DNA from: a virus
Virus record (IMG/VR): IMGVR_UViG_3300029268_000039
Coordinates: 1 to 42,234 of that record
Length of the DNA: 42,234 bases
Direction: 5' to 3' (one strand)
Shown: positions 3 to 42,234 of the stretch, piece after piece
How positions within the stretch are numbered: position 1 is the stretch's first letter
How the letters are laid out: each line of letters opens with the position of its first letter
The notes under the pieces: model-generated
Seen by the model: the letters and a program-made list of their open reading frames with translations, nothing else
The model's database searches: none
What the model was told of the DNA's origin: nothing
Made by a program: the position numbers and the translations under genes

Positions 3-521
3 ACTTATCCAGGTGGCGGCGGCGGCGGCATGGGTTCCATAGGAGCAAATTCTACTGCCTATTATGGTGGTAATGGGGGAAGCGGTGTAAGTAGCACAAT
101 TCTTGATGGCTCAACTGACTATTATGCTGGTGGTGGAGGTGGCGGTGCATATAATGCAATTACGGGTGGCGGAACTGCTCAACACGGTGGTGGAGCAGGA
201 AGTGCTAATGGCAACGGAACTGCTGGAACTACAAATACTGGTGGCGGTGGTGGTGGAGGAGCTTCGCATGGTGGAGGACAGATAGGAGGAAAAGGTGGCT
301 CAGGAATTGTAATTATTAGATATCTTACTTCTTCTCAAGTCGTAGATACTACTCACGAAATTACACCAAACATTGTTTCGGCTGGTGAATGGCAGACTGC
401 AAAATTAGATTTATCGGCAATTGCCAATGACAATAAAAGTAGTGTTATTTCAATGATAGCAACAGTAACAAATGCGGATGCAGAAAATACATTTTATTTA
501 GATGCACTTAAATACAGATAG
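3..521 (+). CDS. C-terminal part of glycine-rich tail fibre/adhesin (5' truncated by window edge)
   Basis: Open from the window edge, read from base 3, to the TAG at 519-521; 172 residues are visible. The first ~95 are runs of Gly with Ser, Asn and Ala, closed by GGSGIVIIRYLT, the same ending as the first glycine-rich domain in the gene at the right edge (40639 onward). The last ~65 residues form a different, non-glycine domain (EWQTAKLDLSAIA ... FYLDALKYR) that looks like a beta-sandwich tail. Glycine-rich modules in phage fibres can fold as polyglycine-II helix bundles that bind receptors (known for T-even-type adhesins); applying that here is inference. It is best read as the 3' end of the gene that runs off the right edge. 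The direct join is out of frame by one base. A following AGGAGG serves the next gene. Confidence 0.75.
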   Translation, partial: TYPGGGGGGMGSIGANSTAYYGGNGGSGVSSTILDGSTDYYAGGGGGGAYNAITGGGTAQHGGGAGSANGNGTAGTTNTGGGGGGGASHGGGQIGGKGGSGIVIIRYLTSSQVVDTTHEITPNIVSAGEWQTAKLDLSAIANDNKSSVISMIATVTNADAENTFYLDALKYR

Positions 522-5376: not shown

Positions 5377-5703
5377 ATGAGAGAATTTGAAACCGGAGCA
5401 ACAAGGGATAACGACGACACAAAGAATGACTATGAAGGTTTTCTAAGCCCTTTAGTAATTGAGGCCTATGGAAACTACATGACTAAGCACCGCAAACAAG
5501 CGGATGGTAAATTAAGAGACAGTGATAATTGGCAAAAAGGAATGCCTAAAGATTGCTATATGAAATCTGGTTGGCGACATTTTATGGACTGGTGGAAATG
5601 GCATCGGGGTATTCCCGCGGGAGAGGCCTTAATAGATGCTCTATGCGCCTTGATGTTTAATGTTATGGGGTATCTACATGAAACCCTCAAGGAGAAAACA
5701 TGA
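5377..5703 (+). CDS. DUF5664 / dATP-dGTP diphosphohydrolase N-terminal-type protein
   Basis: 108 residues behind AGGAGG. The pattern is that of the small phage DUF5664 proteins: FETGATRD at the start, then DYEGFLSP, YMTKHRKQADG, RDSDNWQKG, WRHFMDWWKWHRG and a final helix ALCALMFNVMGYLHE. The domain name comes from the N-terminal region of cyanophage S-2L MazZ, an all-alpha dATP/dGTP diphosphohydrolase of MazG-like fold. Whether small stand-alone copies are active enzymes is not established. The stop overlaps the next start (ATGA), which pairs it with a second nucleotide-metabolism candidate. Confidence 0.75.
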   Translation: MREFETGATRDNDDTKNDYEGFLSPLVIEAYGNYMTKHRKQADGKLRDSDNWQKGMPKDCYMKSGWRHFMDWWKWHRGIPAGEALIDALCALMFNVMGYLHETLKEKT

Positions 5704-6029
5704 AGTGCGTCTATGTTGCTGGTAAATTAAACGCTGACGCAGTTGGGTACATCAAAAATGTACACAACATGATTAGGGTATCTAACGAGATCAGGCGCTT
5801 AGGATATTCAGTATTTGTGCCATGCTTGGATATTCTATGTGGGTTGTTAGCCGGAGACTTTACCTATCAGGATTATGCTTTAAATAATATGAAGTGGTTA
5901 GAAAAATCTGATATAGTTTATGTGTTACCGGAGAGTGAAAACTCTAAAGGGACCCAAGCTGAAATAGCCCGGGCCCAAGAGTTAGACATTCCTATTTTAT
6001 ACTCATTAGATATGCTTCTAGTATTTTAA
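5700..6029 (+). CDS. nucleoside 2-deoxyribosyltransferase-like protein (DUF4406-type)
   Basis: 109 residues, ATGA overlap with the DUF5664 gene. It has the Rossmann-like features of the deoxyribosyltransferase superfamily: an N-terminal strand (CVYVAGKL), a helix ending RRLGYSVFVP, W-x-x-x-SDIVYVLPES with the acidic residues that usually sit at the active site, then the SKGTQAEIARAQELDIPI motif. Related enzymes exchange or hydrolyse bases of deoxynucleosides or nucleotides. With its partner it suggests control of the dNTP pool or of unusual nucleotides. It is the last gene of the rightward arm, and its 3' end overlaps the last leftward gene by 38 bases. Confidence 0.7.
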   Translation: MKCVYVAGKLNADAVGYIKNVHNMIRVSNEIRRLGYSVFVPCLDILCGLLAGDFTYQDYALNNMKWLEKSDIVYVLPESENSKGTQAEIARAQELDIPILYSLDMLLVF

Positions 6030-6834: not shown

Positions 6835-8754
6835 TTATTTTTTATACCTCCTAGTAGTTTCGCATTCAGCGTTTATTGGACAACCTTTGGCCCAATCCGG
6901 TACTTGTCTTACAATTTTAATTACATCAGCATCAGTCTTATTTCCTATTCTTGCTTCCAATACCAATTCGTCATGCACGGTAAAAAGGATATGGAACCCG
7001 GCGCGGAATAGATTAAACATCGATTCAACCATGATATCCCGGGCAACCGCCTGAGTGGCATTCTCTACTAATTTACCACCCCAGGTTTCTTCGATTTCAT
7101 ATTTATTAGTTACACTATTAACTGCCAGATAAGTTAGCTTTCCTTCGGCGGTGATTTTAGGTTTGTGGTAGTATATACTTCTACCGGAGGGTAGTTCCAT
7201 AACTAGAAATTCTCCCTTCATGTACCAGTTAATTAGCCCACAAGAATGTTCCTTAATGGAACTAACTGCTTTCTTGGCTGCGTCTTCCATAGCATACCAG
7301 AAGCGAGGTACTTTACTAAAGACTTGTCGATAGGATTGCACTGCGCGTTCTGCTAGGGCGCTATCAATTTCAATTTCATAAGTAGCGCACGTCTCGACAA
7401 ATCTTTTTGGCCCCATGCCATAACCACAACCTAAGACGGCTTGCTTACCAAGTTGTCTTTCTTTTTTATTTGCTTTCGTAAGTCCAGGCTTATTGTGTAT
7501 CGCGCGGGCCATGTGTACATAAATATCAGGAATTAATGGGTCCCGATCTTGCTTTTCAAAGATCTCCAGACCTTTAGTTTCGGCTGCGAGCCACATGACG
7601 ACTCTGGCTTCGATAGCCGCGAAGTCCGTAATGAACATTTCACAACCGGGCGAGGCAACGAACATTCCTCTGATGCAAGACGAGAGAGTAGGGAGTGCCT
7701 CATAAAAGCATCGAAAGCCGCTTGCGTCTTCTTTGAGAATGCTAATGGCGGTATCAATCTGCCCTGGCGATATCGTAGCTTTGACCAGATTTTGGATTTG
7801 TACGAGTTTGCCTGACCACCGACCAGTGGACGCTCCATGGTAAATAAGGATATCCCTAATTCTTTCATCCTTTGATGCAGCCGCTTTGAGCGCAATATAT
7901 TTAGCGTTCGACGTGAGGGAGAGTTGCTGTCTAAGTTGAAGGACACGGAGATTATTCCCATCGGAGTTTCTGATCGCTTCTTTGACGGTTGCTTTCGTAA
8001 GATTTGGAAGATCAACACCTTTGGATTCGAGGTACTTTTTGATGGCGTCTCTTTGAGTTCCGGCGTTTACTTGCCCTCCTGTTAAATTAAATAATTCTTC
8101 ATTGAGTGTTTTAGTTTCATCGGCAATCACTTTGATTGCTTTTTCAACAGCATCCATATCAACACAGATACCATTGTCATTTATATACTGGTCCATGAAC
8201 CAGACTTGTTGCTCCTTGGGCGTTAGATCTGAAATTCTTTTATCAATATCTCTTTCAGTTTCAACGTCCTGAATACAATACTTTAGCAACCGGTCTAGTT
8301 TTTCTTTTTCAATAGGACCTTTAGATATACATAGAGATCTCATTACCTTAGCCCCTTCTAAATCTTTTTGGAAGGAACAGCCTAATGCCTGAGCGGCGTG
8401 CTCTAGGCGTCGCGGTAATGAATGAGAAGATACTTTGGCCGCAGTACAGCGCCATTGTTTTATAGGTACCGGGACGGCTCCATACTTGGTTTCTAAGCAG
8501 AATTTCCAGATCCAGCGCTCAAAGAAAGCGTTGTGAGCATGGAATTCGGCTCCTTCTTTTACCAGGGCATTCAATTCAGGTATGGCATTTTTGAGTTCCT
8601 GACCATACAGGACGCCTTTTACGGGTCCGTTATCGATTGCCCAGGCAAGACAAAGGATCTCTGTTGTAGGGTCTTCTGCGTAATGGTAGGCCCCGCCAGC
8701 CCAGATATCTGCCTGACTACGTGATTCGAAGTCAATATATACGCGTTTAGTCAT
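6835..8754 (-). CDS. family A DNA polymerase with 3'-5' exonuclease
   Basis: The replicative polymerase of the phage. The start is set at 8754 (MTKRVYIDF): the first exonuclease motif follows at once and a GGGGG lies upstream, while the longer version adds 22 residues that just read through the methylase end. Of 639 residues, the N-terminal third is a DEDD proofreading exonuclease (YIDFES with Asp8/Glu10, AHNAFFER, CIQDVETERD). The polymerase part shows TGRWSG, motif A TDFAAIEARV (Asp377, Glu382), the O-helix R433-K437-L441-Y445, and motif C TVHDE. The residue matching Escherichia coli Phe762 is Leu441, a variant known from many environmental phage PolA proteins. It overlaps the methylase gene by eight bases. 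Confidence 0.93.
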   Translation of the reverse strand: MTKRVYIDFESRSQADIWAGGAYHYAEDPTTEILCLAWAIDNGPVKGVLYGQELKNAIPELNALVKEGAEFHAHNAFFERWIWKFCLETKYGAVPVPIKQWRCTAAKVSSHSLPRRLEHAAQALGCSFQKDLEGAKVMRSLCISKGPIEKEKLDRLLKYCIQDVETERDIDKRISDLTPKEQQVWFMDQYINDNGICVDMDAVEKAIKVIADETKTLNEELFNLTGGQVNAGTQRDAIKKYLESKGVDLPNLTKATVKEAIRNSDGNNLRVLQLRQQLSLTSNAKYIALKAAASKDERIRDILIYHGASTGRWSGKLVQIQNLVKATISPGQIDTAISILKEDASGFRCFYEALPTLSSCIRGMFVASPGCEMFITDFAAIEARVVMWLAAETKGLEIFEKQDRDPLIPDIYVHMARAIHNKPGLTKANKKERQLGKQAVLGCGYGMGPKRFVETCATYEIEIDSALAERAVQSYRQVFSKVPRFWYAMEDAAKKAVSSIKEHSCGLINWYMKGEFLVMELPSGRSIYYHKPKITAEGKLTYLAVNSVTNKYEIEETWGGKLVENATQAVARDIMVESMFNLFRAGFHILFTVHDELVLEARIGNKTDADVIKIVRQVPDWAKGCPINAECETTRRYKK

Positions 8755-9160
8755 GGTTAATAGGCCCCCTAAAAATTGCAATCGCACTTGGAAACGGTGC
8801 TGAGTTTTTGCTATCCCCAAATTTTAATCTGCCTTTTATAAATCTAATCTCATCTGCTTTCATAATATAATCGTGCCACCATTTTGTATCTGTTCGGCTT
8901 GGGATTAATAAAACACATATTGCTCCACTTTGTGATACTTCATAGGTTTTCTTTAGCCATTTTCCGATAGCACGCCCATAAGGAGGATTAATAAAATTGC
9001 TACTGCCCCACAAACAGGTAAGCCCGTCATAGCCAATAGGATTATGCAAGGGGCAAGGATCAAAGTTGAAATTAAACTCTTTGTTGAGTTCGTCATATAT
9101 TCCTTTCGGTGTAGCCCAATGTGGGCTTAAACTTGTCATTAAACCAGCGAATTTTTTCAT
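8747..9160 (-). CDS. phage DNA N6-adenine methyltransferase (Dam type)
   Basis: 137 residues, somewhat short for the family but with the whole visible core: HWATPKGIYDELNKEF at the start, FDPCP (33-37), and the catalytic NPPYGR (58-63), followed by WLKKTYE and LIPSRTDTKWWHDY. This is the pattern of phage Dam methylases (PF05869). They methylate adenine, possibly to protect phage DNA from host restriction. Ribosome site is weak. The stop overlaps the polymerase start, so both are likely translated together. Confidence 0.88.
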   Translation of the reverse strand: MKKFAGLMTSLSPHWATPKGIYDELNKEFNFNFDPCPLHNPIGYDGLTCLWGSSNFINPPYGRAIGKWLKKTYEVSQSGAICVLLIPSRTDTKWWHDYIMKADEIRFIKGRLKFGDSKNSAPFPSAIAIFRGPINHD

Positions 9161-11335: not shown

Positions 11336-12723
11336 AGTATACACTCCATGTTTTTTCTGCACTTTGCGCAGACGGTTAGTTTGGCTACCCGTTTTAGTTT
11401 TTGTATCTCTGTTATCTCTCCACAAACTTTGCATCTGGTTTCAACAAATTCTGTTCTCCCCCTTTCGTTTAGTATGGTGTTTATATTCTTCGCTTTCTCG
11501 GTTAGTGAATCTATAACTTTTTCATCTATGCTATTCTCGGCAATTAAAAATTGGGCTAGGATAGGTTTAGTTTGACCCATCCTTGAGAGTCTATCTACTG
11601 CCTGTCTTATCTCTCCAGGTACATAGGACATCTCTACAAAAACACAAATATCACAAACATATTGAAGGCCATCAACACCAATCCCGGCAGAAATTATTTG
11701 ACCAATAAAGATCTTTACATTTGGGGCCTTCTGAAAATCATTTAGTGCCTTCTCTTTCTCTTTGGAACTTTCGGATCCAGTATACATAACTGCCTGACCC
11801 GGGAAAGCATCAAATATATTTTGCGCTACATCTTTATGCCATACAAAAACAACGATCTTATCTTTTTCTTCGAGCAAATCCTTTAAGTGATGGATTGCCG
11901 CGGTTGATTTTAAGACACCCAATGCTCTGCGTATAGAAGAAATCTCTCCAATAGTTTTCTTGGCATCGAATTCTTTCTTCTCTAACTCAGTCAATGAAAT
12001 TAATTTATCCGATGGATCTAAATAGATTTTTTCATACGATACCGGCGGTAACTGTTTTTGTACTTCTGTCTTTAAGCGTCTTAACATAATAGGTTCTAGG
12101 ATCCCAGCTAGTTCTTCTAAGTTAGAGGCGCCGGTACAATCAAAACCAAAGGTCCCTTGGTGTCCGGAGCAATAGCGATACGCGTAATCATAGAAGTTAA
12201 CATACTTACCTAAAAATTCCGGAAACAATGATCGTAATGCCGGGAATAGTTCTACCGGACGATTCAGTATCGGTGTTCCTGTCATCAACCATCTCCTTTG
12301 ACACTTATTATACAAGCCTTTTTTCCCAAGTATTGTCTTGGTACGTTTAGCGTCAATGTTCTTTAAGTAATGGCTTTCATCACAGATTATAACTTGCCAA
12401 TACTGTTCTGTCAAGTAAGAAATTAATGGCTCTTTCCAAATCAAATCATAATTAACAACATTAAAAGCACTAATCTCCGGCACTACCTTTGGCGAAATTA
12501 TTTCTTTTATAAAAACATTGGGCATCTGTTCCCGGATTCTTTTTACCCAGGATCTTCTTATGGATTGTGGGCAAATCACTAATCCCGACGAGATACCTAA
12601 CTTCTTCATAGCCTCTAAGGCCTGATAGGTTTTACCTAGCCCCATATCATCAGCCAAAATGGCATTTTGTCGAAGGGCTAGGAAGTCCCGGCCAACTTCT
12701 TGAAATGGAAGTAACTTAATCAT
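11332..12723 (-). CDS. SNF2-family DNA helicase/translocase
   Basis: 463 residues in an ATGA overlap with the glycosyltransferase. Helicase motifs in order: Walker A DDMGLGKT (25-32), VICPQS, NYDL, DESH box (115-118), LMTGTP, then the second RecA domain with KIVVFVWHKDVA, and QAVDRLSRMGQ (motif VI with the arginine finger). The C-terminus has a four-cysteine ribbon (CKVCGEI ... CAKCRKN). It is compact, like SMARCAL1-type annealing helicases and phage SNF2 proteins that remodel forks or pair strands. The catalytic motifs look intact. A perfect consensus promoter lies inside the gene. Confidence 0.92.
   Translation of the reverse strand: MIKLLPFQEVGRDFLALRQNAILADDMGLGKTYQALEAMKKLGISSGLVICPQSIRRSWVKRIREQMPNVFIKEIISPKVVPEISAFNVVNYDLIWKEPLISYLTEQYWQVIICDESHYLKNIDAKRTKTILGKKGLYNKCQRRWLMTGTPILNRPVELFPALRSLFPEFLGKYVNFYDYAYRYCSGHQGTFGFDCTGASNLEELAGILEPIMLRRLKTEVQKQLPPVSYEKIYLDPSDKLISLTELEKKEFDAKKTIGEISSIRRALGVLKSTAAIHHLKDLLEEKDKIVVFVWHKDVAQNIFDAFPGQAVMYTGSESSKEKEKALNDFQKAPNVKIFIGQIISAGIGVDGLQYVCDICVFVEMSYVPGEIRQAVDRLSRMGQTKPILAQFLIAENSIDEKVIDSLTEKAKNINTILNERGRTEFVETRCKVCGEITEIQKLKRVAKLTVCAKCRKNMECIL
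12386..12414 (-). promoter_or_regulatory. consensus sigma-70 promoter inside the SNF2 gene
   Basis: On the minus strand TTGACA (12414-12409), a 17-base spacer and TATAAT (12391-12386): a full match to both consensus boxes at ideal spacing. It points downstream toward the recombination and polymerase genes. The bases also encode SNF2 residues just before its DESH box, so chance cannot be excluded, but a perfect match is rare. Confidence 0.5.
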
Positions 12724-13430
12724 TTTTTCATAGCCTCTTTTAATTTCTGTAAGTCTTTTTCATAGTGATTAAATAGATAATCTTGTACAGCGTTCCAGCC
12801 AAAAACCTGTTCCTCTTTACCATACACCCAGGAATAGTTATCATCCAGCGGACGACGGCCATTAAGCCAATGGCGATGCTCAATTACTACATCTCTGGTT
12901 AATACTAAACCACCAATCCCTTCGGCAATTTTTGCTAAGAAGGTGTCAGTTCCAATATGGCGCAATCCCGGGTACATAATGTAACCCAGCGTACGAACGA
13001 TATTGCTAGATATAACACAGCCCGACGGGTGTTTACATTTCTCCCAATCAGTTAATAGATCATCCGCGCCAGCGATTCCCCAGCCCCCCATATCCTCGAC
13101 GAGTTTAATTAGTTTCTTATCCCAATCCTGGGTAATGAATACATGATCGTCATTGAGGGTTGAGAAGTATTTATAGTCTAAGTTAGCCATAGCAAATTCA
13201 TTATAAACTTGGGCAATAAATTTTCTAGGACCCCACTGTAAACTAATACCTAGGTTATTCTCAAACCTTTTAAAAGTATTAACATAGTCGGGTAACGTCG
13301 GGTCGTCTTCGGCTACATAGATAACTAAATCCGTCCCCTCATTGCGCGTACGTAAGAAGGTGTCAATCATTTCTCTTATCAGTATAGGCCGCCCTCGGCT
13401 AGGGCAAATGGCTAAGACATTTTTATCCAT
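12720..13430 (-). CDS. glycosyltransferase-like protein, GT-A fold
   Basis: 236 residues. N-terminal VLAICPSRGRP strand-loop and the following helix are typical of GT-A nucleotide-sugar transferases; YVAEDDP and the metal-site-like NDDHVFI (93-99) stand where the DxD motif is expected. GWGIAGADDLL and EHRHW are further family-like pieces. The acceptor is unknown: phage members may decorate DNA bases, virion proteins or host surface sugars. It overlaps both neighbours (SNF2 and the second glycosyltransferase), so it is part of the same early operon. Confidence 0.7.
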   Translation of the reverse strand: MDKNVLAICPSRGRPILIREMIDTFLRTRNEGTDLVIYVAEDDPTLPDYVNTFKRFENNLGISLQWGPRKFIAQVYNEFAMANLDYKYFSTLNDDHVFITQDWDKKLIKLVEDMGGWGIAGADDLLTDWEKCKHPSGCVISSNIVRTLGYIMYPGLRHIGTDTFLAKIAEGIGGLVLTRDVVIEHRHWLNGRRPLDDNYSWVYGKEEQVFGWNAVQDYLFNHYEKDLQKLKEAMKK

Positions 13431-14190
13431 TAGCGTCGCCTCGTTTTAATTGGTATAGGTCTTTCATTCCATCTTCACCAAACATTTCGGATAGTATTTT
13501 ATACATCTTAGACGTCGGGTCAAGCTGTTTTGTGGCCAATAACTCTCGGGCCCTGGAATTAAAAAGAAACAATCTATTCCAGGGAGTAACTTCTCTATGG
13601 TTGACCATGATATCCATGTGTACATGTGGTTGGATCCCTTTGTCTAAACATTTTTGGCAAAACGCAGTATCTGGAGAAGCATCATCTTTGGGGTCAAAGA
13701 ACGGATACGTGAATTGCTTAATCATTGATACTTTAAATAGCGTAAATGGAAACGCAGTTAAATCACAAGGTTGTACCCCGTCGCCATCAAGTTCTGTCAA
13801 TAGCGTACCACCTAACTTTTCTGTTTGCTGTAATGTCAATGACTTATCAATTTTATTGAAGGCACATCTTGAGTATGGGAATCCCCGGATATACATTACA
13901 CCAGAGATAAAATCTTTATCCGCCTCAATTAATTTCATTACATCGCCGGGCCTAACACCCCAGATATCATCATCCATACGGAGGACGTGGGTGTATTTAT
14001 TGACAATCCCGGTTTTAAAGATTGCATTATCCGCCTTACGAATCTCTTGACGATACGGAAACATAAATCCCATTTCTATATTTGCGCGTCTTAGATCTTG
14101 TACCACGACTAACAATGATGCCAGCCATTTTTGTGGGTTGGGATCTAAGTCTAACGTGGGACAAGCTATTAAAATTTTTAGATCACTCAT
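13423..14190 (-). CDS. second glycosyltransferase-like protein, GT-A fold
   Basis: 255 residues, GGGGGAG before the ATG. It begins KILIACPTLD; the acidic metal motif is RMDDDIWG (Asp73-75), followed by EADKDFISGVMYIRGFP. The PFF-DPKDDASPDTAFCQKC and HMDIMVNHREVTPWNR stretches resemble the acceptor side of phage and metagenomic GT-A enzymes. It is clearly different from the other glycosyltransferase, so the two probably act on different substrates or successive steps. Overlaps neighbours by eight bases on each side. Confidence 0.72.
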   Translation of the reverse strand: MSDLKILIACPTLDLDPNPQKWLASLLVVVQDLRRANIEMGFMFPYRQEIRKADNAIFKTGIVNKYTHVLRMDDDIWGVRPGDVMKLIEADKDFISGVMYIRGFPYSRCAFNKIDKSLTLQQTEKLGGTLLTELDGDGVQPCDLTAFPFTLFKVSMIKQFTYPFFDPKDDASPDTAFCQKCLDKGIQPHVHMDIMVNHREVTPWNRLFLFNSRARELLATKQLDPTSKMYKILSEMFGEDGMKDLYQLKRGDANG

Positions 14191-14623
14191 TCTCTCCCCC
14201 TTCTTCTAAAGTTTTGGCTTTATATTCTATGCCCGCGGCTTTATAGAATTTATCATAGGTGTCTTCGGAAAGGTGTTTTATTTTTTCTTCTACTCTTTCT
14301 TTTTTATCTAAGATATTTTTATTTTCCACCCGGATCTTATTAGTATTCCTAATCATTATTGCGCGTCGGCCCACTTCTGCTAACGGTATTGACCCCTCAG
14401 CAGCATTTCTAACGGAATGCTCTAGGTCCCAGATAGATAAATTAGTCTGGGCCAGGCGAATAATAGCTACTAAAAACTCTCCGTCGATTCCCGCTTCATT
14501 GCACCATTCCATAATCTGATCTAATTCCGCTTGCGCTCCCGGTAGTCGGCATAGCGCTTTCTTTGATACTATGCAAAGATAGTCAATGAATTCACCAAAC
14601 GTCAAAGCAAAAGGTTTTCTCAT
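14183..14623 (-). CDS. hypothetical helical protein, 146 aa
   Basis: Start set at 14623 (MRKPFALTFGEF), where GGGAGA stands six bases upstream and the ATG overlaps the preceding tiny gene's stop; a start four codons earlier is possible. Mostly helical with an acidic, Lys-rich C-terminus (KERVEEKIKHLSEDT ... EEGGENE). No catalytic motif. It is embedded between the glycosyltransferases and the radical SAM genes, so it may be an accessory of the metabolic block. Not recognised. Confidence 0.55.
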   Translation of the reverse strand: MRKPFALTFGEFIDYLCIVSKKALCRLPGAQAELDQIMEWCNEAGIDGEFLVAIIRLAQTNLSIWDLEHSVRNAAEGSIPLAEVGRRAIMIRNTNKIRVENKNILDKKERVEEKIKHLSEDTYDKFYKAAGIEYKAKTLEEGGENE

Positions 14624-14730
14624 AGTTTCTCCCATACATGTTTATCAAACCATAAAGCAACCGGAATGATTATCGCATACACCGCGATGATTTCAAAACA
14701 CCCAACAATCAATTTCCAGGTTAGGTCCAT
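14620..14730 (-). CDS. 36-residue single-span membrane peptide
   Basis: A small gene running from ATG 14730 (AGGGGG about seven bases upstream) to a TGA overlapping the next ATG. Residues ~6-27 form one hydrophobic helix (LIVGCFEIIAVYAIIIPVAL) followed by WFDKHVWEKL. Its ribosome site and exact fit between genes argue that it is real. It could be a membrane anchor for the neighbouring enzymes, or an early membrane-active peptide. Confidence 0.5.
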   Translation of the reverse strand: MDLTWKLIVGCFEIIAVYAIIIPVALWFDKHVWEKL

Positions 14731-14738
14731 ATAGCCCC

Positions 14739-15806
14739 CTATATAAAATTAATATGGCCGGGCTTATTCACAAAGTTATGAATAAACTCGTTCGTCGAAT
14801 CATGCCTACAGCATCCGCAGCAATCTTTTCTAACATCAAATACCGTTTGCATCTCTTTAATTACATTCCAATAATGATCGGAGTTTAAAATCTCTCCTAG
14901 GCTTTGGGTATTAAGATCCCCATAACAATACTTCTCATTACCAAACAGATAGCCACATGGATAGCATTTGCCGTCGCCAGATATCTGGAATAATAAAGGG
15001 ACATCTAGGCAATGCTCATACGGGCGGTTCTTCATATTTCTGATTGCCATATACTTAGGGATAATCCGGGTACCAAAGGTTGACATCTGCTCGGCCTTTT
15101 TTAATACTTCTAATACTTCTGGTGAATTAGCCCAATTACTATCAACCTTTGACATTAAATCACAATGGGGATCAGAGAATTGTTTGATCACAAAATAATC
15201 CACCCCGGAATCAATAGCAAATTGCGCTTCTCTTAAAATATATGGGAATGCATTGGGAGTAAGTACCATTTGCAATCCGATTGTAGCTTTAAGATCAAAT
15301 TTCTTTTTAAGTTCCACCGCCAACTGTATGTTATGTTTTACAGTTTCCCAATATGGTCTACCATGTACTACTTCATACCCTTCTTCAATAGCAGATAAGT
15401 TAAATCGTAGCCAGGTAAGCCGAGCGACTAATTCGGCTAAGCCATTCATATCTAATTTTACTCCATTAGTCGCAACAGCCATATCCAAACCGTTATCAGT
15501 CCCTGTTACAACGGCGTTAATAAAATCCGGATGCAGCGTAGGTTCTCCATCGCCGACAATAGCAATAGCTTTTACTCCGGCTTTCGGAGCATCATTCATT
15601 AATTGCAATAACTTATCGCCGGGGATCATGGATCCATTCATATTCTGGAAGTAGCCGTAACAAAATTCGCATTTTATATTACAAAATTTAGTTAGGCCCA
15701 TATCAATCATAATCGGGGCAATTCTTTTTCCTTGCACGTAGTGTTTATGCACCCGGTCCATGTGCCACAAAAGTTTATTCCCATCTAACTTCCACTTGTC
15801 AATCAT
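14739..15806 (-). CDS. radical SAM enzyme with SPASM-like C-terminus
   Basis: Start set at 15806 (MIDKWKLDGN), with AGGAGG just upstream and an ATGA overlap. Of 355 residues, the [4Fe-4S] motif is FCNIKCEFCYG (Cys42, 46, 49), followed by IVGDGEPTLHPDF, the GGE-type SAM motif, and VATNGVKLD. The C-terminal ~80 residues hold further cysteines (CYPCGYLFG, then DCCGCCRH) as in SPASM or twitch extensions that bind extra clusters, used in peptide, sugar or cofactor modification. The substrate is not readable. It follows another radical SAM gene; the two are not copies of each other. Confidence 0.85.
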   Translation of the reverse strand: MIDKWKLDGNKLLWHMDRVHKHYVQGKRIAPIMIDMGLTKFCNIKCEFCYGYFQNMNGSMIPGDKLLQLMNDAPKAGVKAIAIVGDGEPTLHPDFINAVVTGTDNGLDMAVATNGVKLDMNGLAELVARLTWLRFNLSAIEEGYEVVHGRPYWETVKHNIQLAVELKKKFDLKATIGLQMVLTPNAFPYILREAQFAIDSGVDYFVIKQFSDPHCDLMSKVDSNWANSPEVLEVLKKAEQMSTFGTRIIPKYMAIRNMKNRPYEHCLDVPLLFQISGDGKCYPCGYLFGNEKYCYGDLNTQSLGEILNSDHYWNVIKEMQTVFDVRKDCCGCCRHDSTNEFIHNFVNKPGHINFI

Positions 15807-16633
15807 ATATCCTCCTTTATGGTTACTGAACAATGGCCACTCTCTTGTAGCCGGTTAGTTTTTAATTTAATATCACAGGGGTTACAATGCCCAAAATAAT
15901 CACAGTGCCTAAACGACGGAAACTTAATATCTGTATCGAGAATGTGCCCAATCGCTCCTCGGGCCGCATATAGATCAGCATGGCATCTATAGATTAATCC
16001 GTCGGGGGCAATCAATAATTCTGAGGGTTTACATAAAACTCTCTTGGTGAATGACGATCCAACAGCGCGAGGATATTTATAAGTACCTCGTTTATCGTCG
16101 AGGTATTCTTTTACTCTATAATCAATTCCTAAATTTTCGCATAGACGCCTTACCTGACCATCTTTGTGGTTATTTAATCCCCATATACCAACAGAATAAT
16201 CTCTTTTATTGAGATAGTCGATTTTACTAACTAATCCTACTAAATCAAAACCTTGCTGCCCATGAAAACTGAATCTAATCGAGGCATAAGGTGCCTCTCT
16301 TAAAAATATTTGTGAATGTATTCTCTTAGTAAAATGCTCTAATTCAAAAGTCCCATTAGTTAATAGATCTACGGTCTTTCCCGCGCGGTATAGCTCAACA
16401 GCTAAATCATAGAAACCTGGATAGATGGTTGGTTCTCCACCTTGTAGGGTAATTGGAAGGTCATTGCGTGTTTGAATCCTACTTAATCCCCGGATCCAAT
16501 CCTCAGTGCCCATTTCTTTTGGCACCTTAAAATCCCCTTGTCTGTTAATACAATAGGGGCAATTTAGATTGCAGCGCAAAGTTAAAAAGGCTGCTACATA
16601 ATTATAATGATCAGGTAGTACAATCGTTTTCAT
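15803..16633 (-). CDS. radical SAM enzyme (shorter)
   Basis: Start placed at the second of two nearby ATGs (16633) because AAGGA is then nine bases away; 16639 is the alternative. Of 276 residues, the cluster motif is RCNLNCPYCIN (Cys21, 25, 28), followed by LQGGEPTIYPGF (SAM-binding) and LLTNGTF. The C-terminus has more cysteines (VLCKPSELLI ... YRCHADLY ... CDYFGHCNPCD), suggesting an auxiliary cluster or zinc. It overlaps the TPP-enzyme beta gene by 23 bases. Radical SAM enzymes of this type are seen in sugar, nucleotide and peptide modification; which applies here is unknown. Confidence 0.83.
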   Translation of the reverse strand: MKTIVLPDHYNYVAAFLTLRCNLNCPYCINRQGDFKVPKEMGTEDWIRGLSRIQTRNDLPITLQGGEPTIYPGFYDLAVELYRAGKTVDLLTNGTFELEHFTKRIHSQIFLREAPYASIRFSFHGQQGFDLVGLVSKIDYLNKRDYSVGIWGLNNHKDGQVRRLCENLGIDYRVKEYLDDKRGTYKYPRAVGSSFTKRVLCKPSELLIAPDGLIYRCHADLYAARGAIGHILDTDIKFPSFRHCDYFGHCNPCDIKLKTNRLQESGHCSVTIKEDI

Positions 16634-17126
16634 AGTCATCTTTCCTTTCTATAATTATAATGGGGTTTGGTTTGCTAAAATTTTCTAAATAAGCTCCGGG
16701 TCTATAATCTATACATTTAATGTATGGTGAAAATACATGTCGATAATCTGCGCAATGTTGTGGCCCCATTTCAAATTTCTTTGATGTGCTACCTAAAATT
16801 GTGCGTATTACAATAGGCATAATTATTTGATTGCCTGACATCTCTGGTAGTTTAGCAATGTGATTAATAATTGCGTCTGCTGCTACTAACATAAAATCCA
16901 TTCTCTGAAAAACTACAATAGGATAATATCCGGCAAGTGCTAATCCGATGGCAGATCCTACTATGAGATTCTCCGCGATAGGCATTTCAATACACTTTGT
17001 CAAGGGAACCTCGTTAAGTGTATCGTAGCACCGGCCGGCGTTTATGATACCCTCTCCTAGGAATATTGTATGATCGAGGGTACCAAGTTTAGCTAACTCA
17101 TTTCCAATATGCTGTTTATACTTCAT
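16611..17126 (-). CDS. thiamine-diphosphate enzyme, E1 beta-like (pyrimidine-binding) half
   Basis: Start set at 17126 (MKYKQHIGNEL), an ATGA overlap with the alpha half; the longer frame is part of that gene. The 171 residues match the pyrimidine-binding domain of E1-beta: MPIAENLIVGSAIGLALAGY (the Glu51 that activates the TPP ring), VVFQRMDFMLVAADAIINHI, then PIVIRTILGS and GPQHCADYRH (His124). The usual C-terminal transketolase domain is missing; ordinary E1-beta chains are about 325 residues. Paired with the next gene it should form the TPP site at the subunit interface. The substrate is unknown and no E2 lipoyl protein is encoded in the window. Confidence 0.82.
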   Translation of the reverse strand: MKYKQHIGNELAKLGTLDHTIFLGEGIINAGRCYDTLNEVPLTKCIEMPIAENLIVGSAIGLALAGYYPIVVFQRMDFMLVAADAIINHIAKLPEMSGNQIIMPIVIRTILGSTSKKFEMGPQHCADYRHVFSPYIKCIDYRPGAYLENFSKPNPIIIIERKDDYENDCTT

Positions 17127-17722
17127 AGTGATACATGCTCCCCAATGCCGACATGCGGCCAAGTCCTCGCATAATAATAATGTATTATATTTGGTAATGT
17201 AACTGGGTGATAGTTACCCCAGCGTTCTTCGGTTGTAGTTTCTACCGCTAAATCATTATGCTCGACAATAAATAATACTGGCAATTCTTTTGAATAGCAA
17301 TATCTAGCTGCTTCAAAGAAATAGCCGGAGTCTTCTGCACCATCACCAACAAACACCCAAACCTTTTTTCCGGCTAATCCTAGCCCACAAGCTATCGCGC
17401 AAGTTCCACCAATGATCGCGGAAGAATAAAAATTAATTGACGGGTCAATGATGTGCATTGATCTACCCTGGCCACCGCAGCAACCATCATAATACCCAAC
17501 AATTTCAGATTCTAATTTATGTGGGCTACCACCTTTTAAAAGATAATGATAATGGGATCTATGTGTAGATAAAACATAGTCCTCTGGTTTTATATTCTTA
17601 AATATTTTAATCAACTGATTTTCATTTCCACCCGAGAGATGTATAGGGCAATTAATCAGTCCGTTTTTAAAGGCATCTGCAATTCTTTGTTCAAAAGCTA
17701 TTAATTCTTTTTTAGTCATCAT
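17123..17722 (-). CDS. thiamine-diphosphate enzyme, E1 alpha-like (diphosphate-binding) half
   Basis: 199 residues, ATGATG start five bases after GGAG and overlapping the primase-helicase stop. Conserved E1-alpha pieces: STHRSHYHYLLKGG (52-65), GGQGRSMHI (83-91), IIGGTCAIACGLGLA, then the TPP/Mg motif GDGAEDSGYFFEAARY (GDG 126-128) closing at Asn156 in VEHNDLAVET. It is shorter than the typical 320-360 residues at both ends, yet every cofactor motif is present. This looks like a minimal, probably active half of an E1-like ketol-transfer or decarboxylating enzyme. Family-level identity is firm; reaction unknown. Confidence 0.85.
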   Translation of the reverse strand: MMTKKELIAFEQRIADAFKNGLINCPIHLSGGNENQLIKIFKNIKPEDYVLSTHRSHYHYLLKGGSPHKLESEIVGYYDGCCGGQGRSMHIIDPSINFYSSAIIGGTCAIACGLGLAGKKVWVFVGDGAEDSGYFFEAARYCYSKELPVLFIVEHNDLAVETTTEERWGNYHPVTLPNIIHYYYARTWPHVGIGEHVSL

Positions 17723-39658: not shown

Positions 39659-40639
39659 ATGACAGTTACAGCTTCGTACACACCAGTTTTAGATGAGGCC
39701 GATGGAGTAGAGACAGATTATGATTTTGGTTTTAAAGCCTTAGGATCGTCGGATGTAGTGGTTGCATTAGTAGATAAAATTACTTTAGTTGCCACGCCCC
39801 AGAGTATATCTACGCATTATACAGTAGAATTAAATGTGTCTACTCCTGGAGGGACAATTAAGTTTCTTAGTGCCCCCGCGGATACAAACTATGTTTCAAT
39901 TCGCCGTGGTGTAGCCGTTACACAAACAGCTGATATCCCTTCTGGTGGTTTATTCCGAGAAGTTCAAGTTGAGAATGCTTTAGACAAAGCAATTATGATT
40001 TTACAAGAATTACAAGAGGTTATTGGTAGGGCCCTTTTACAAAGTCCGTACAGTTCAACTGTAAATTTGGCATTGCCAATAGCAGTTGCGAATAAAATTA
40101 TTGGTTGGGATGCCACGGGAACGGCGTTAGAGAATAAAATTGCTATTGATGCGGATGTTGTGGCGGCAGCGGCAGCGAGTGCTTCAGAAGCCGCGGGATA
40201 CGCGAGTTCTGCTAATACCTCAAAAACAAACGCGGAAACTGCAGAGACAAACGCTGAGACAGCTGAAACAAATGCTGAGACAGCTCAGACAGCAGCAGAG
40301 GCAGCAGCAAGTGATGCAGCTACTTATTCGTCTTTGGTTACCCTAAATGCTCAAACCGATAATTATACTTTAGTTTTAACTGATCGAAATAAATTAGTAG
40401 ATATGAATAAGGCTACAGCAGTCAATCTTACAATTCCATTAAATTCATCCGTAGAATTTCCTGTTGGTTCAGTAGTTAATTTACGTCAATTAGGTGCCGG
40501 TCAAGTTACAATTGTTGCAACAGGCGGAGTAACAATAGTGAAAGAAATCGGATTACAAACTACCGGACAATATGCAGTTGCAGCTTTACTGAAAACAGCT
40601 ACTGATACTTGGTTAGCTTATGGAGCTCTGGAGGCTTAA
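39659..40639 (+). CDS. tail fibre anchor, T7 gp17 N-terminal type
   Basis: 326 residues behind AAGGAGGG. The first ~130 residues match the T7-fibre N-terminal domain (YTPVLDEADGVETDYDFGF, TPGGTIKFLSAPADTNYVSI, GLFREVQVENALDKAIMIL) that binds the tail. Then comes a coiled coil with a near-perfect heptad NAETAET repeated three times (about 195-218, encoded by 21-base repeats at 40230-40295), and a small C-terminal beta domain (NYTLVLTDRNKLVDMNKATA). This short anchor probably carries the glycine-rich adhesin encoded next. Confidence 0.85.
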   Translation: MTVTASYTPVLDEADGVETDYDFGFKALGSSDVVVALVDKITLVATPQSISTHYTVELNVSTPGGTIKFLSAPADTNYVSIRRGVAVTQTADIPSGGLFREVQVENALDKAIMILQELQEVIGRALLQSPYSSTVNLALPIAVANKIIGWDATGTALENKIAIDADVVAAAAASASEAAGYASSANTSKTNAETAETNAETAETNAETAQTAAEAAASDAATYSSLVTLNAQTDNYTLVLTDRNKLVDMNKATAVNLTIPLNSSVEFPVGSVVNLRQLGAGQVTIVATGGVTIVKEIGLQTTGQYAVAALLKTATDTWLAYGALEA

Positions 40640-42234
40640 TGTTTGCCAACAACAGATTCACATTTGGAGTAACTGCAATCAAGTCAATTTATGTGTTTGA
40701 TTTGATGGAATATATTTCTGATGCTCTAGCGCAAGAAGCTTATGTAACAAATGCTTCGGCAGTTTCAGCTCCAACTGGTGGCACAATTATTACTGATGGC
40801 GCTTATACAATACATAAATTTACTTCAGACGGAACATTTACGCCATCTAAGTTAGGAAGCGTTCAAGTTTTAGTAGTTGCTGGTGGCGGTGGTGGTGGCT
40901 ATAAGAGTCCTTATCTTGGAGGTGGTGGTGGAGCAGGAGGAGCACAATATTCGTCTTCTACTGCAATCACTGCTCAAGCATACACTATAACTGTTGGTGA
41001 TGGTGGCGCAGCAGACAATAATGGTGAAGATTCTTCAGCTTTAGGAATAACGGCAACTGGCGGAGGAAGAGGAGCTAACGCGCAATCTACTGGATATAAT
41101 GGTGGTTGTGGAGGAGGCGCAGGAAGAGGAGCTGGTGGTACTGGTTCTCAGGGATATGATGGGGGAGACACTGGAGGTAGTGGTGATGCAGGATGCGGTG
41201 GTGGTGGAGGAATGGGTTCTGCAGGTGGCGATGGAAATGACTCAGGAAATTGCGGAGATGGTGGAAACGGAACAAGTACTTATTCTGATTTATTGATTGC
41301 TGCAAGCGCTGGAGTTGATGTAGGTGGAGTTCATTATATTGCTGGTGGAGGTGGTGGCGGTAGAAATTATAACGTATCTAGTGGGTATCGTGGTATAGGA
41401 ACTCACGGTGGTGGTTCAGGAGCAATGAATGATGTTGCCTCTACAGCAGGAACGGCTAATACGGGTGGTGGTGGTGGAGGTGGTGGCGGTAGTGGTGCCG
41501 GCAAAGCAGGTGGATCAGGCATAGTAATTATTCGCTACTTAACAACAGCTTTTACTGATCCAGTTCTCCAATGCTACTCAGAATCTACAATAAAAACTCA
41601 AGGATCTTATTCGCTCAAATCTGTTGCAGCAATTACGGCTTCACTAAATAAAACTTTAACAAAAACTTTATCAAGTCCATTAGATTTATCTAATATAAAA
41701 AGTTTCAATATTCTTATTCGTGCAAGTCGAACTGGAAGCAATATAAAAATAGGATTGCATTGTTTAGGTTCAACAACAAAAGCAACAGGCGGGACTATTT
41801 CGACCGATGGAGATTATACAGTACATAAATTCGACACTGTTGGAAACGCAACATTCACTCCATATAAGGCCGGCAATGTATCTTGTTTAATTGTCGCTGG
41901 TGGTGGTGGTGGTTGTGTGGGAGGTGGTGGTGCTGGTGGAGTTGTTTCAAATGCTTCTTCTGCTGTTACTGCACAAGCATATACAATTGTTGTTGGCGAT
42001 GGTGGAAATGGTGCAGTAATTGCCACAAACGGTTCAAAGGGTTCTAATGGTGGAAACTCTTCTTTTAATAGTCAAACTGCAATTGGCGGAGGTGGCGGCG
42101 GTAACTGTTCTGATAATAGTATGGATACTGGTGCTAATGGTGGTTGCGGAGGTGGAGGCGGAACACACCCAACTGCTTCAACGGGAGGGACAGGTTCTCA
42201 GGGCTACAATGGTGGACAAGGGGTTAAAGAAGGA
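40639..42234 (+). CDS. glycine-rich tail fibre/adhesin, 5' part (runs off the window)
   Basis: TAATG overlap with the fibre anchor; 532 codons to the window edge without a stop. Layout: a short N-terminus (MFANNRFTFGVTAIKSIYVF), glycine-rich domain 1 (about 45-300) starting TDGAYTIHKFTSDGTFTP and ending GGSGIVIIRYLTT, a beta-like linker of ~70 residues (DPVLQCYSESTIKTQGSYSL), then glycine-rich domain 2 starting TDGDYTVHKFD. Domain 2 is cut by the edge; its missing end matches the sequence at 3-521. Complete length would be about 705 residues. GGT/GGC tracts are prone to slippage. It is the probable receptor-binding protein. Confidence 0.78.
   Translation, partial: MFANNRFTFGVTAIKSIYVFDLMEYISDALAQEAYVTNASAVSAPTGGTIITDGAYTIHKFTSDGTFTPSKLGSVQVLVVAGGGGGGYKSPYLGGGGGAGGAQYSSSTAITAQAYTITVGDGGAADNNGEDSSALGITATGGGRGANAQSTGYNGGCGGGAGRGAGGTGSQGYDGGDTGGSGDAGCGGGGGMGSAGGDGNDSGNCGDGGNGTSTYSDLLIAASAGVDVGGVHYIAGGGGGGRNYNVSSGYRGIGTHGGGSGAMNDVASTAGTANTGGGGGGGGGSGAGKAGGSGIVIIRYLTTAFTDPVLQCYSESTIKTQGSYSLKSVAAITASLNKTLTKTLSSPLDLSNIKSFNILIRASRTGSNIKIGLHCLGSTTKATGGTISTDGDYTVHKFDTVGNATFTPYKAGNVSCLIVAGGGGGCVGGGGAGGVVSNASSAVTAQAYTIVVGDGGNGAVIATNGSKGSNGGNSSFNSQTAIGGGGGGNCSDNSMDTGANGGCGGGGGTHPTASTGGTGSQGYNGGQGVKEG

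Follow-up and report, generated by a model that had tools for sequence, protein, structure and literature searches.

What might a compact set of metabolic genes do inside the replication operon of a phage? This question is raised by the IMG/VR virus record IMGVR_UViG_3300029268_000039, all 42,234 bases of which (hereafter, the window) were analyzed. Between the genes for a VapE primase-helicase and an SNF2 helicase, eight densely packed open reading frames (ORFs) occupy the minus strand at 12720-17722. They encode E1-alpha- and E1-beta-like subunits of a thiamine pyrophosphate (TPP) enzyme related to pyruvate dehydrogenase (PDH) E1, two radical S-adenosylmethionine (SAM) enzymes (rSAM2 and rSAM1), a 36-residue peptide, a DUF4254/DUF6165-like protein and two glycosyltransferases (GTs). 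We favor, at a probability of about 0.6, the explanation that this block is a mobile glycan cassette, which would make an unusual sugar and then attach it to the virion or the host surface during infection. By analogy with known enzymes, the sugar would probably be two-carbon-extended.

The gene set recurs in phages and in cells

Using mechanical ORF calls throughout, and viral collections that include near-duplicates, we found at least seven further phage contigs, all distinct, in which the genes for E1-alpha, E1-beta, rSAM2, rSAM1 and the DUF4254/DUF6165-like protein occur together, mostly at about 33-63% identity. All five core genes were present in loci L006, L010, L011 and L102, and in L100 and L122 together with an additional rSAM1-type gene; L009 and L182 carried a partial set, and L173 carried all seven conserved window genes, both GTs included. 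Because identities to the window vary strongly from gene to gene (73% for the DUF protein and 38% for E1-beta in L173; 60% for rSAM2 and 36% for E1-beta in L010), the data suggest that parts have been swapped between cassettes. In L130 and its relatives, a large near-identical viral group, a GT1-containing ORF, E1-beta, a radical SAM gene and E1-alpha lie between capsid and tail genes, i.e., within the head-tail operon, and by inspection this group also has a GT9-like ORF. In L010, L174 and L180 the cassette adjoins the portal gene. The nearest recognized marker was structural in 29 viral loci (mostly from one phage group) and a replication gene in 18 (several of them duplicates), with none recognized in a further 57. 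Single-sequence viral scans with E1-alpha and rSAM2 were too narrow, and alignment queries gave many more loci; the viral E1 results are among the matches listed.

The TPP enzyme itself proved exchangeable. A split transketolase-type pair stands in place of the E1 pair in L013, L177 and L185, with L013 additionally encoding a sugar-type formyltransferase and a DegT aminotransferase, and a 563-aa acetolactate synthase (ALS)-type enzyme with all three TPP_enzyme domains does so in L181. When viral loci were found by rSAM2, independently of E1, a TPP enzyme (E1 pair, split transketolase or ALS type) lay beside rSAM2 in 9 of 11 evaluable non-redundant loci, compared with 4 of 67 loci that the scan returned for other radical SAM genes, some of which are near-duplicates (Fisher p ~2e-7). 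Since rSAM2 loci pair with three types of TPP enzyme, it seems that a TPP step is needed and that different enzymes can perform it. The ALS type is accompanied by an aminotransferase in L181, L278 and L287 by inspection, as confirmed for L287 by a match to Pfam Aminotran_1_2.

The set was also found in cells, the taxa of which are given as named by their records. A search for rSAM2 in the two phyla to which the L017 (Nanoarchaeota) and L023 (Desulfobacterales) genomes belong covered 371 + 395 genomes, and 20 of them gave a match, one apiece. Among the 18 regions fetched, one of which (L277) belongs to the L017 genome that the E1 search had found earlier, 13 had a TPP enzyme near rSAM2 (nine E1, two transketolase-type and two ALS-type), and four of the five regions that had none were short contigs. 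The core of rSAM2, rSAM1 and a TPP enzyme is present in viruses and in cells. These findings answer affirmatively the question posed in the original prediction, i.e., whether the same set occurs in other phage genomes, with the pairing of rSAM2 and TPP enzymes far exceeding the rate at control radical SAM loci.

The cellular neighborhoods are rich in glycan genes. Amongst 71 proteins neighboring the cellular cassettes were nine epimerases, nine GT2 enzymes, nine methyltransferases, six B12-binding/radical SAM proteins, four GT9 heptosyltransferases, three PfkB proteins, two flippases and two PMT_2 proteins, and the 99 neighbors of cellular loci with E1 only included 26 epimerases, 25 GDP-mannose dehydratases, six GHMP kinases, five DegT and four SIS proteins. 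In L282 the set contains GT9, GT2 and B12-radical SAM genes and has as its neighbors a PMT_2 protein gene and a gene with the N-terminal methylation motif of pilins; prepilin-like sequences were seen by inspection in L286. Both L282 and L286 combine a full-length E1 pair (~335/350 aa), B12-radical SAM, GT2, GT9 and rSAM2 in one locus, beside which lie pilin-like and PMT/TPR membrane proteins. E1 and rSAM2 are likewise paired in L284, L288, L290 and L291. A locus of the L282/L286 type is likely to serve pilin or surface glycosylation.

In a tree of E1-alpha, the window fell within a clade of seven phage rows (support 100/87), and the larger group around this clade also includes cellular rows with the same gene set. 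No direction of transfer is claimed, because the bootstrap did not settle and some rows are long-branched.

Two further sets of loci were noted. L287, from a cellular genome of the phylum of L023, resembles phage DNA (SU10-type portal, Terminase_3). It encodes rSAM1, a class I aminotransferase, a DUF4254-like protein, rSAM2 and an ALS-type TPP enzyme divided between two ORFs, and represents the ALS form of the cassette in what is probably a provirus or phage contig. Four other radical SAM viral contigs (L222, L223, L225 and L238) carry split transketolase-type genes, most of them also with GT1-like genes; sets of radical SAM, TPP and GT genes may form a wider class.

Organization and products of the block

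The original prediction, that eight overlapping or nearly abutting genes tied into one operon by overlaps of 4-29 bases lie between the primase-helicase and SNF2 helicase genes, was borne out for every gene's place and strand (Table 1). In transcription order, VapE overlaps E1-alpha by 4 bases, E1-alpha overlaps E1-beta by 7 (E1-beta ATG start at 17129), E1-beta overlaps rSAM2 by 29 and rSAM2 overlaps rSAM1 by 4 (rSAM1 ATG start at 15806). The sole gap, of 8 bases, separates rSAM1 from the 36-codon ORF, and from this ORF on to SNF2 the overlaps are 16, 8, 8 and 4 bases. The block is thus a part of the operon and not loose cargo. The gene families proposed for it were also confirmed by Pfam and PHROGs, with three amendments: the E1 subunits are shorter than their PDH counterparts, the protein called unknown groups through its relatives with DUF4254/DUF6165-like proteins, and the 36-codon ORF is not conserved.

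Table 1. Positions in the window of the eight ORFs of the block, in transcription order, and of other features mentioned in the text.
Feature	Position	Strand	Family matches and other basis
E1-alpha-like TPP-binding subunit, 199 aa, minimal, GDG...N TPP motif	17123..17722	-	PF00676 (E1_dh, E 1.8e-16); PHROG 34187 (E 1.5e-51)
E1-beta-like pyrimidine-domain subunit, 172 aa, without Transketolase_C	16611..17129	-	PF02779 (Transket_pyr, E 3.5e-10), no other Pfam domain; PHROG 34187 (its positions 237-371)
rSAM2, radical SAM with SPASM/twitch-like cysteine-rich C-terminus	15803..16639	-	PF04055 (Radical_SAM, E 9.8e-11)
rSAM1, radical SAM/SPASM enzyme, 355 aa	14739..15806	-	PF04055 (Radical_SAM, E 2.1e-13); PF13186 (SPASM, E 2e-6, above cut-off)
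36-codon ORF, one apparent membrane helix	14620..14730	-	PHROG 32395 (E 4.7e-4)
DUF4254/DUF6165-like five-helix protein, 150 aa	14183..14635	-	Alignment with relatives; AlphaFold model (pLDDT 82)
GT2-like glycosyltransferase, DDD motif D73-D75	13423..14190	-	PHROG 1574 (E 1e-4, unknown function); weak Anp1 (E 0.2)
GT1-like glycosyltransferase, DD motif D94-D95	12720..13430	-	PHROG 14945 (glycosyltransferase, E 1.7e-25)
Dam-like DNA methylase	8747-9160
Nucleoside 2-deoxyribosyltransferase-like protein	5700-6029
Glycine-rich tail-protein ORFs, running off both ends	40609-42234 and 3-521		Common motif GGSGIVIIRYLT

Both E1 subunits are shortened relative to PDH E1 and belong to a minimal subfamily that is fused alpha to beta in PHROG 34187, e.g., in cyanophages S-SM2 and P-TIM68. 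At least 95% of 136 relatives retain the E1-alpha residues G126, D127, G133, E137 and N156, and the two conserved glutamates of the E1-beta motif EMPIAEN are kept across 89 beta relatives. A Pfam search found no Transketolase_C domain in E1-beta, and no E2 or E3 was found among the window proteins scanned. In PDH, Transketolase_C is the contact with E2. Given that E1-beta has no such domain, the E1 pair is unlikely to supply a normal PDH complex, and its two-carbon intermediate would have to be passed to something other than PDH E2.

The two features of radical SAM/SPASM enzymes, i.e., a CxxxCxxC motif and a SPASM cysteine motif, were found in rSAM1 through its two Pfam matches and in rSAM2 through PF04055 and a CX10GX4C motif, the conserved cysteine pattern being C203-x10-G214-x4-C219 plus C246, C252 and C255. 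Phage relatives of rSAM2 are 41-60% identical to it, and an rSAM1 scan of viral contigs gave nine loci at 47-55% identity. The solved sequences closest to rSAM1 include DesII, BlsE and BtrN, among MoaA and others. A single-sequence fold model of rSAM2 was poor (pLDDT 36). In L011 (8894-10927), and likewise in L012, L094 and L176, rSAM1 is split by an apparent intein (677 aa), which in L011 interrupts the catalytic CxxxCxxC stretch of its radical SAM domain (CNAKCIYC / ...VHNCYG); the 904-aa terminase large subunit of L002 (1592-4306) is also apparently intein-bearing, with an insert that begins CLRGDTLITM...

The GT2-like protein is weak in Pfam and matches a PHROG of unknown function, and its DDD motif is conserved in the relatives from L173 and L013/L178. 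The GT1-like protein, weak in Pfam, is clear in PHROGs; tblastn found its relatives in 69 phage records, and it is kept beside radical SAM and TPP genes in other phages. No relative of it was found among solved structures. The 150-aa protein did not match PF14063 or PF19662 and was placed with DUF4254/DUF6165-like proteins through relatives that match PF14063 at E 4.7e-6 and 1.1e-10. The relative in L010 scored 26.9 bits, just under the gathering score of 27, and a protein in L005, linked indirectly to the window protein, scored 42 bits, above it. Judged by these relatives, the protein is a conserved companion of the phage cassette. The 36-codon ORF had no credible relative in any fetched locus and probably stands outside the conserved set.

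The replication genes of the window run leftward in the order VapE primase-helicase, cassette block, SNF2 helicase, exonuclease, Gp2.5-like single-stranded DNA-binding protein, Dam-like methylase and PolA, and the virion genes run rightward in a podovirus-like arrangement of terminase, head-tail connector, capsid and tail proteins. As the ORFs at the two ends have the motif GGSGIVIIRYLT in common, the record may be a genome cut within its tail-protein gene region.

Precedents and competing explanations

The original prediction did not recognize the combination of these genes with a TPP enzyme. Our literature search on radical SAM, phage and transketolase or glycosylation likewise yielded nothing on this system, subscription journals being mostly outside its coverage. 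A biochemical precedent does exist, however, in AviB1/AviB2 and Pau11/Pau12, which are PDH-E1-like and linked to the installation of two-carbon branches on ketosugars (PMC4425429, PMC4753412); the AviB/Pau ketosugar has been proposed to be already chain-attached (PMC4425429). The window has what such a carboligase calls for, i.e., a homologous alpha/beta pair with a TPP motif and catalytic glutamate, and glycosyltransferase or sugar genes nearby without E2/E3 (the window GTs, and sugar clusters in relatives). Pau11/Pau12, to which the window pair is likened by their PDH-E1-like character, are of full length (325/345 aa) and come from antibiotic clusters, whereas the window pair (199/172 aa) is phage-borne and accompanied by rSAM1 and rSAM2. 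A second precedent is the TPP flavoprotein YerE, which attaches two carbons for the O-antigen sugar yersiniose (PMC4753412). The TPP-dependent two-carbon attachment is the point of likeness; the window has an E1 pair, and the ALS-type enzymes in the E1 place in L181, L278 and L287 are likened to YerE by type alone.

Phage precedents point in the same direction. The 'transketolase central region' proteins of PHROG 34187 in S-SM2 and P-TIM68 are of the same minimal E1 family, phage-borne and 44-49% identical, and genes for a sugar kinase, nucleotidyltransferase, phosphoheptose isomerase, epimerases and GTs lie beside them, in what Sullivan et al. termed LPS clusters (PMC3037559). They differ in having alpha and beta fused, no nearby radical SAM gene recognized, and their own sugar-nucleotide genes. 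Host-recognition clusters in variable regions of pelagimyophages combine radical SAM and glycosyltransferase genes, the GTs being read as modifying the host O-chain (PMC7029224); no transketolase is mentioned for these cassettes (PMC7029224), which are likened to the window by description.

Several observations weigh against a glycan cassette. In the window and the L006/L011/L102 group it lies in the replication module and not with structural genes. No nucleotide-sugar synthesis gene was found within the window's cassette, which would therefore rely on host sugar nucleotides. MoaA and SkfB score equal to the sugar enzymes, and radical SAM substrates are not readable from sequence. The model of the DUF protein had no significant structural relative in the PDB or among viral structures. 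Finally, co-location of E1 and radical SAM genes is no proof that their products act on the same molecule.

DNA hypermodification, toward which the original prediction leaned, would have the enzymes build a base group or its sugar and the two GTs attach it to phage DNA against restriction or CRISPR. This would suit a cassette that lies inside the replication operon beside exonuclease or polymerase genes (in the window, L006, L011, L102, L122, L175 and L182), as well as the presence of GT1-type genes in the replication region of Streptomyces phages, a PHROG match of GT1 to a family labelled DNA methyltransferase, and window GTs without a membrane or lipid-carrier partner. The lean was not upheld. 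In line with the prediction's own failure to see a thymidylate-synthase-like hydroxymethylase, the window and 19 related phage records, which are possibly incomplete, contained no match to thymidylate synthase PF00303 and none over the cut-off to Tet/JBP PF12851; a single sub-threshold Tet/JBP match in the L102 record (E 9e-4, 13 bits against a cut-off of 34.9) has an internal stop. Moreover, the same set occurs in cellular glycan or pilin loci, where modification of phage DNA would make no sense, and in the structural operon of several other phage lineages. As other routes to hypermodification exist and records may be incomplete, these results lower this explanation to an unlikely one rather than remove it. 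The prediction had left a sugar or surface modification equally open, rightly so in view of the glycan contexts of the relatives. The Dam-like methylase and the nucleoside 2-deoxyribosyltransferase-like protein of the window are ordinary phage genes with weak bearing on DNA modification.

Less probable again is a pathway new to science and common to phages, DPANN archaea and bacterial pilus or surface-glycan loci. Its radical SAM enzymes, together with a TPP carboligase of exchangeable type, would remodel a sugar either before or after it is attached, and in this phage the product would end on DNA as a new glycosylated base. It is very improbable that the block serves host metabolism, with E1 diverting pyruvate or feeding central carbon and the radical SAM and GT genes mere neighbors. 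Metabolic genes are frequent in phages and the E1 proteins are homologous to PDH E1, but E1-beta lacks the C-terminal domain of a full-length PDH counterpart, no E2 or E3 was seen among the window proteins scanned, transketolase- or ALS-type enzymes occupy the E1 slot in sister cassettes, and the genome contexts are sugar clusters; this auxiliary metabolic explanation was dropped on the missing C-terminal domain of E1-beta. Least probable of all is RiPP-like maturation of the 36-residue peptide or another small protein by the SPASM enzymes, which are frequently peptide maturases and of which rSAM1 adjoins the small ORF: this was dropped on the lack of conservation of the ORF in any relative, no precursor-recognition domain or peptidase was seen, and the NCBIfam peptide-maturase families listed matched weakly, all far under cut-off.

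Proposed pathway and its meaning

In the glycan cassette that we favor, the minimal E1-alpha/E1-beta pair would bind TPP and decarboxylate a 2-oxoacid that is probably pyruvate. Lacking a domain for docking E2, the pair would hand the two-carbon unit to a sugar, as a carboligase of the kind proposed for AviB1/AviB2. Before or after this step, rSAM2 and rSAM1 may alter the same sugar by radical chemistry (oxidation, deoxygenation, epimerization or C-C bond formation). The two GTs, predicted to be soluble and GT-A-like, would then work in the cytoplasm, linking the product to a virion protein or to a precursor of the host envelope or pilus, with the DUF4254/6165-like protein as a putative accessory. 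Soluble transferases and the proximity of structural genes in several phages favor virion proteins as the acceptor, the cellular pilin and surface loci favor the host surface, and the position in the replication module of the window makes DNA a possible one. The benefit might be masking of the virion or exclusion of competing phages.

Phage-borne glycan genes are known and mostly unexplained. A short, conserved and exchangeable set that occurs in both viruses and cells makes the chemistry workable once, with few genes, through a pilin-linked cellular relative or a phage. The set also suggests radical SAM and TPP routes to sugars for which none of the curated families consulted has a name, as well as a means by which phages may recast the surfaces of their virions or hosts.

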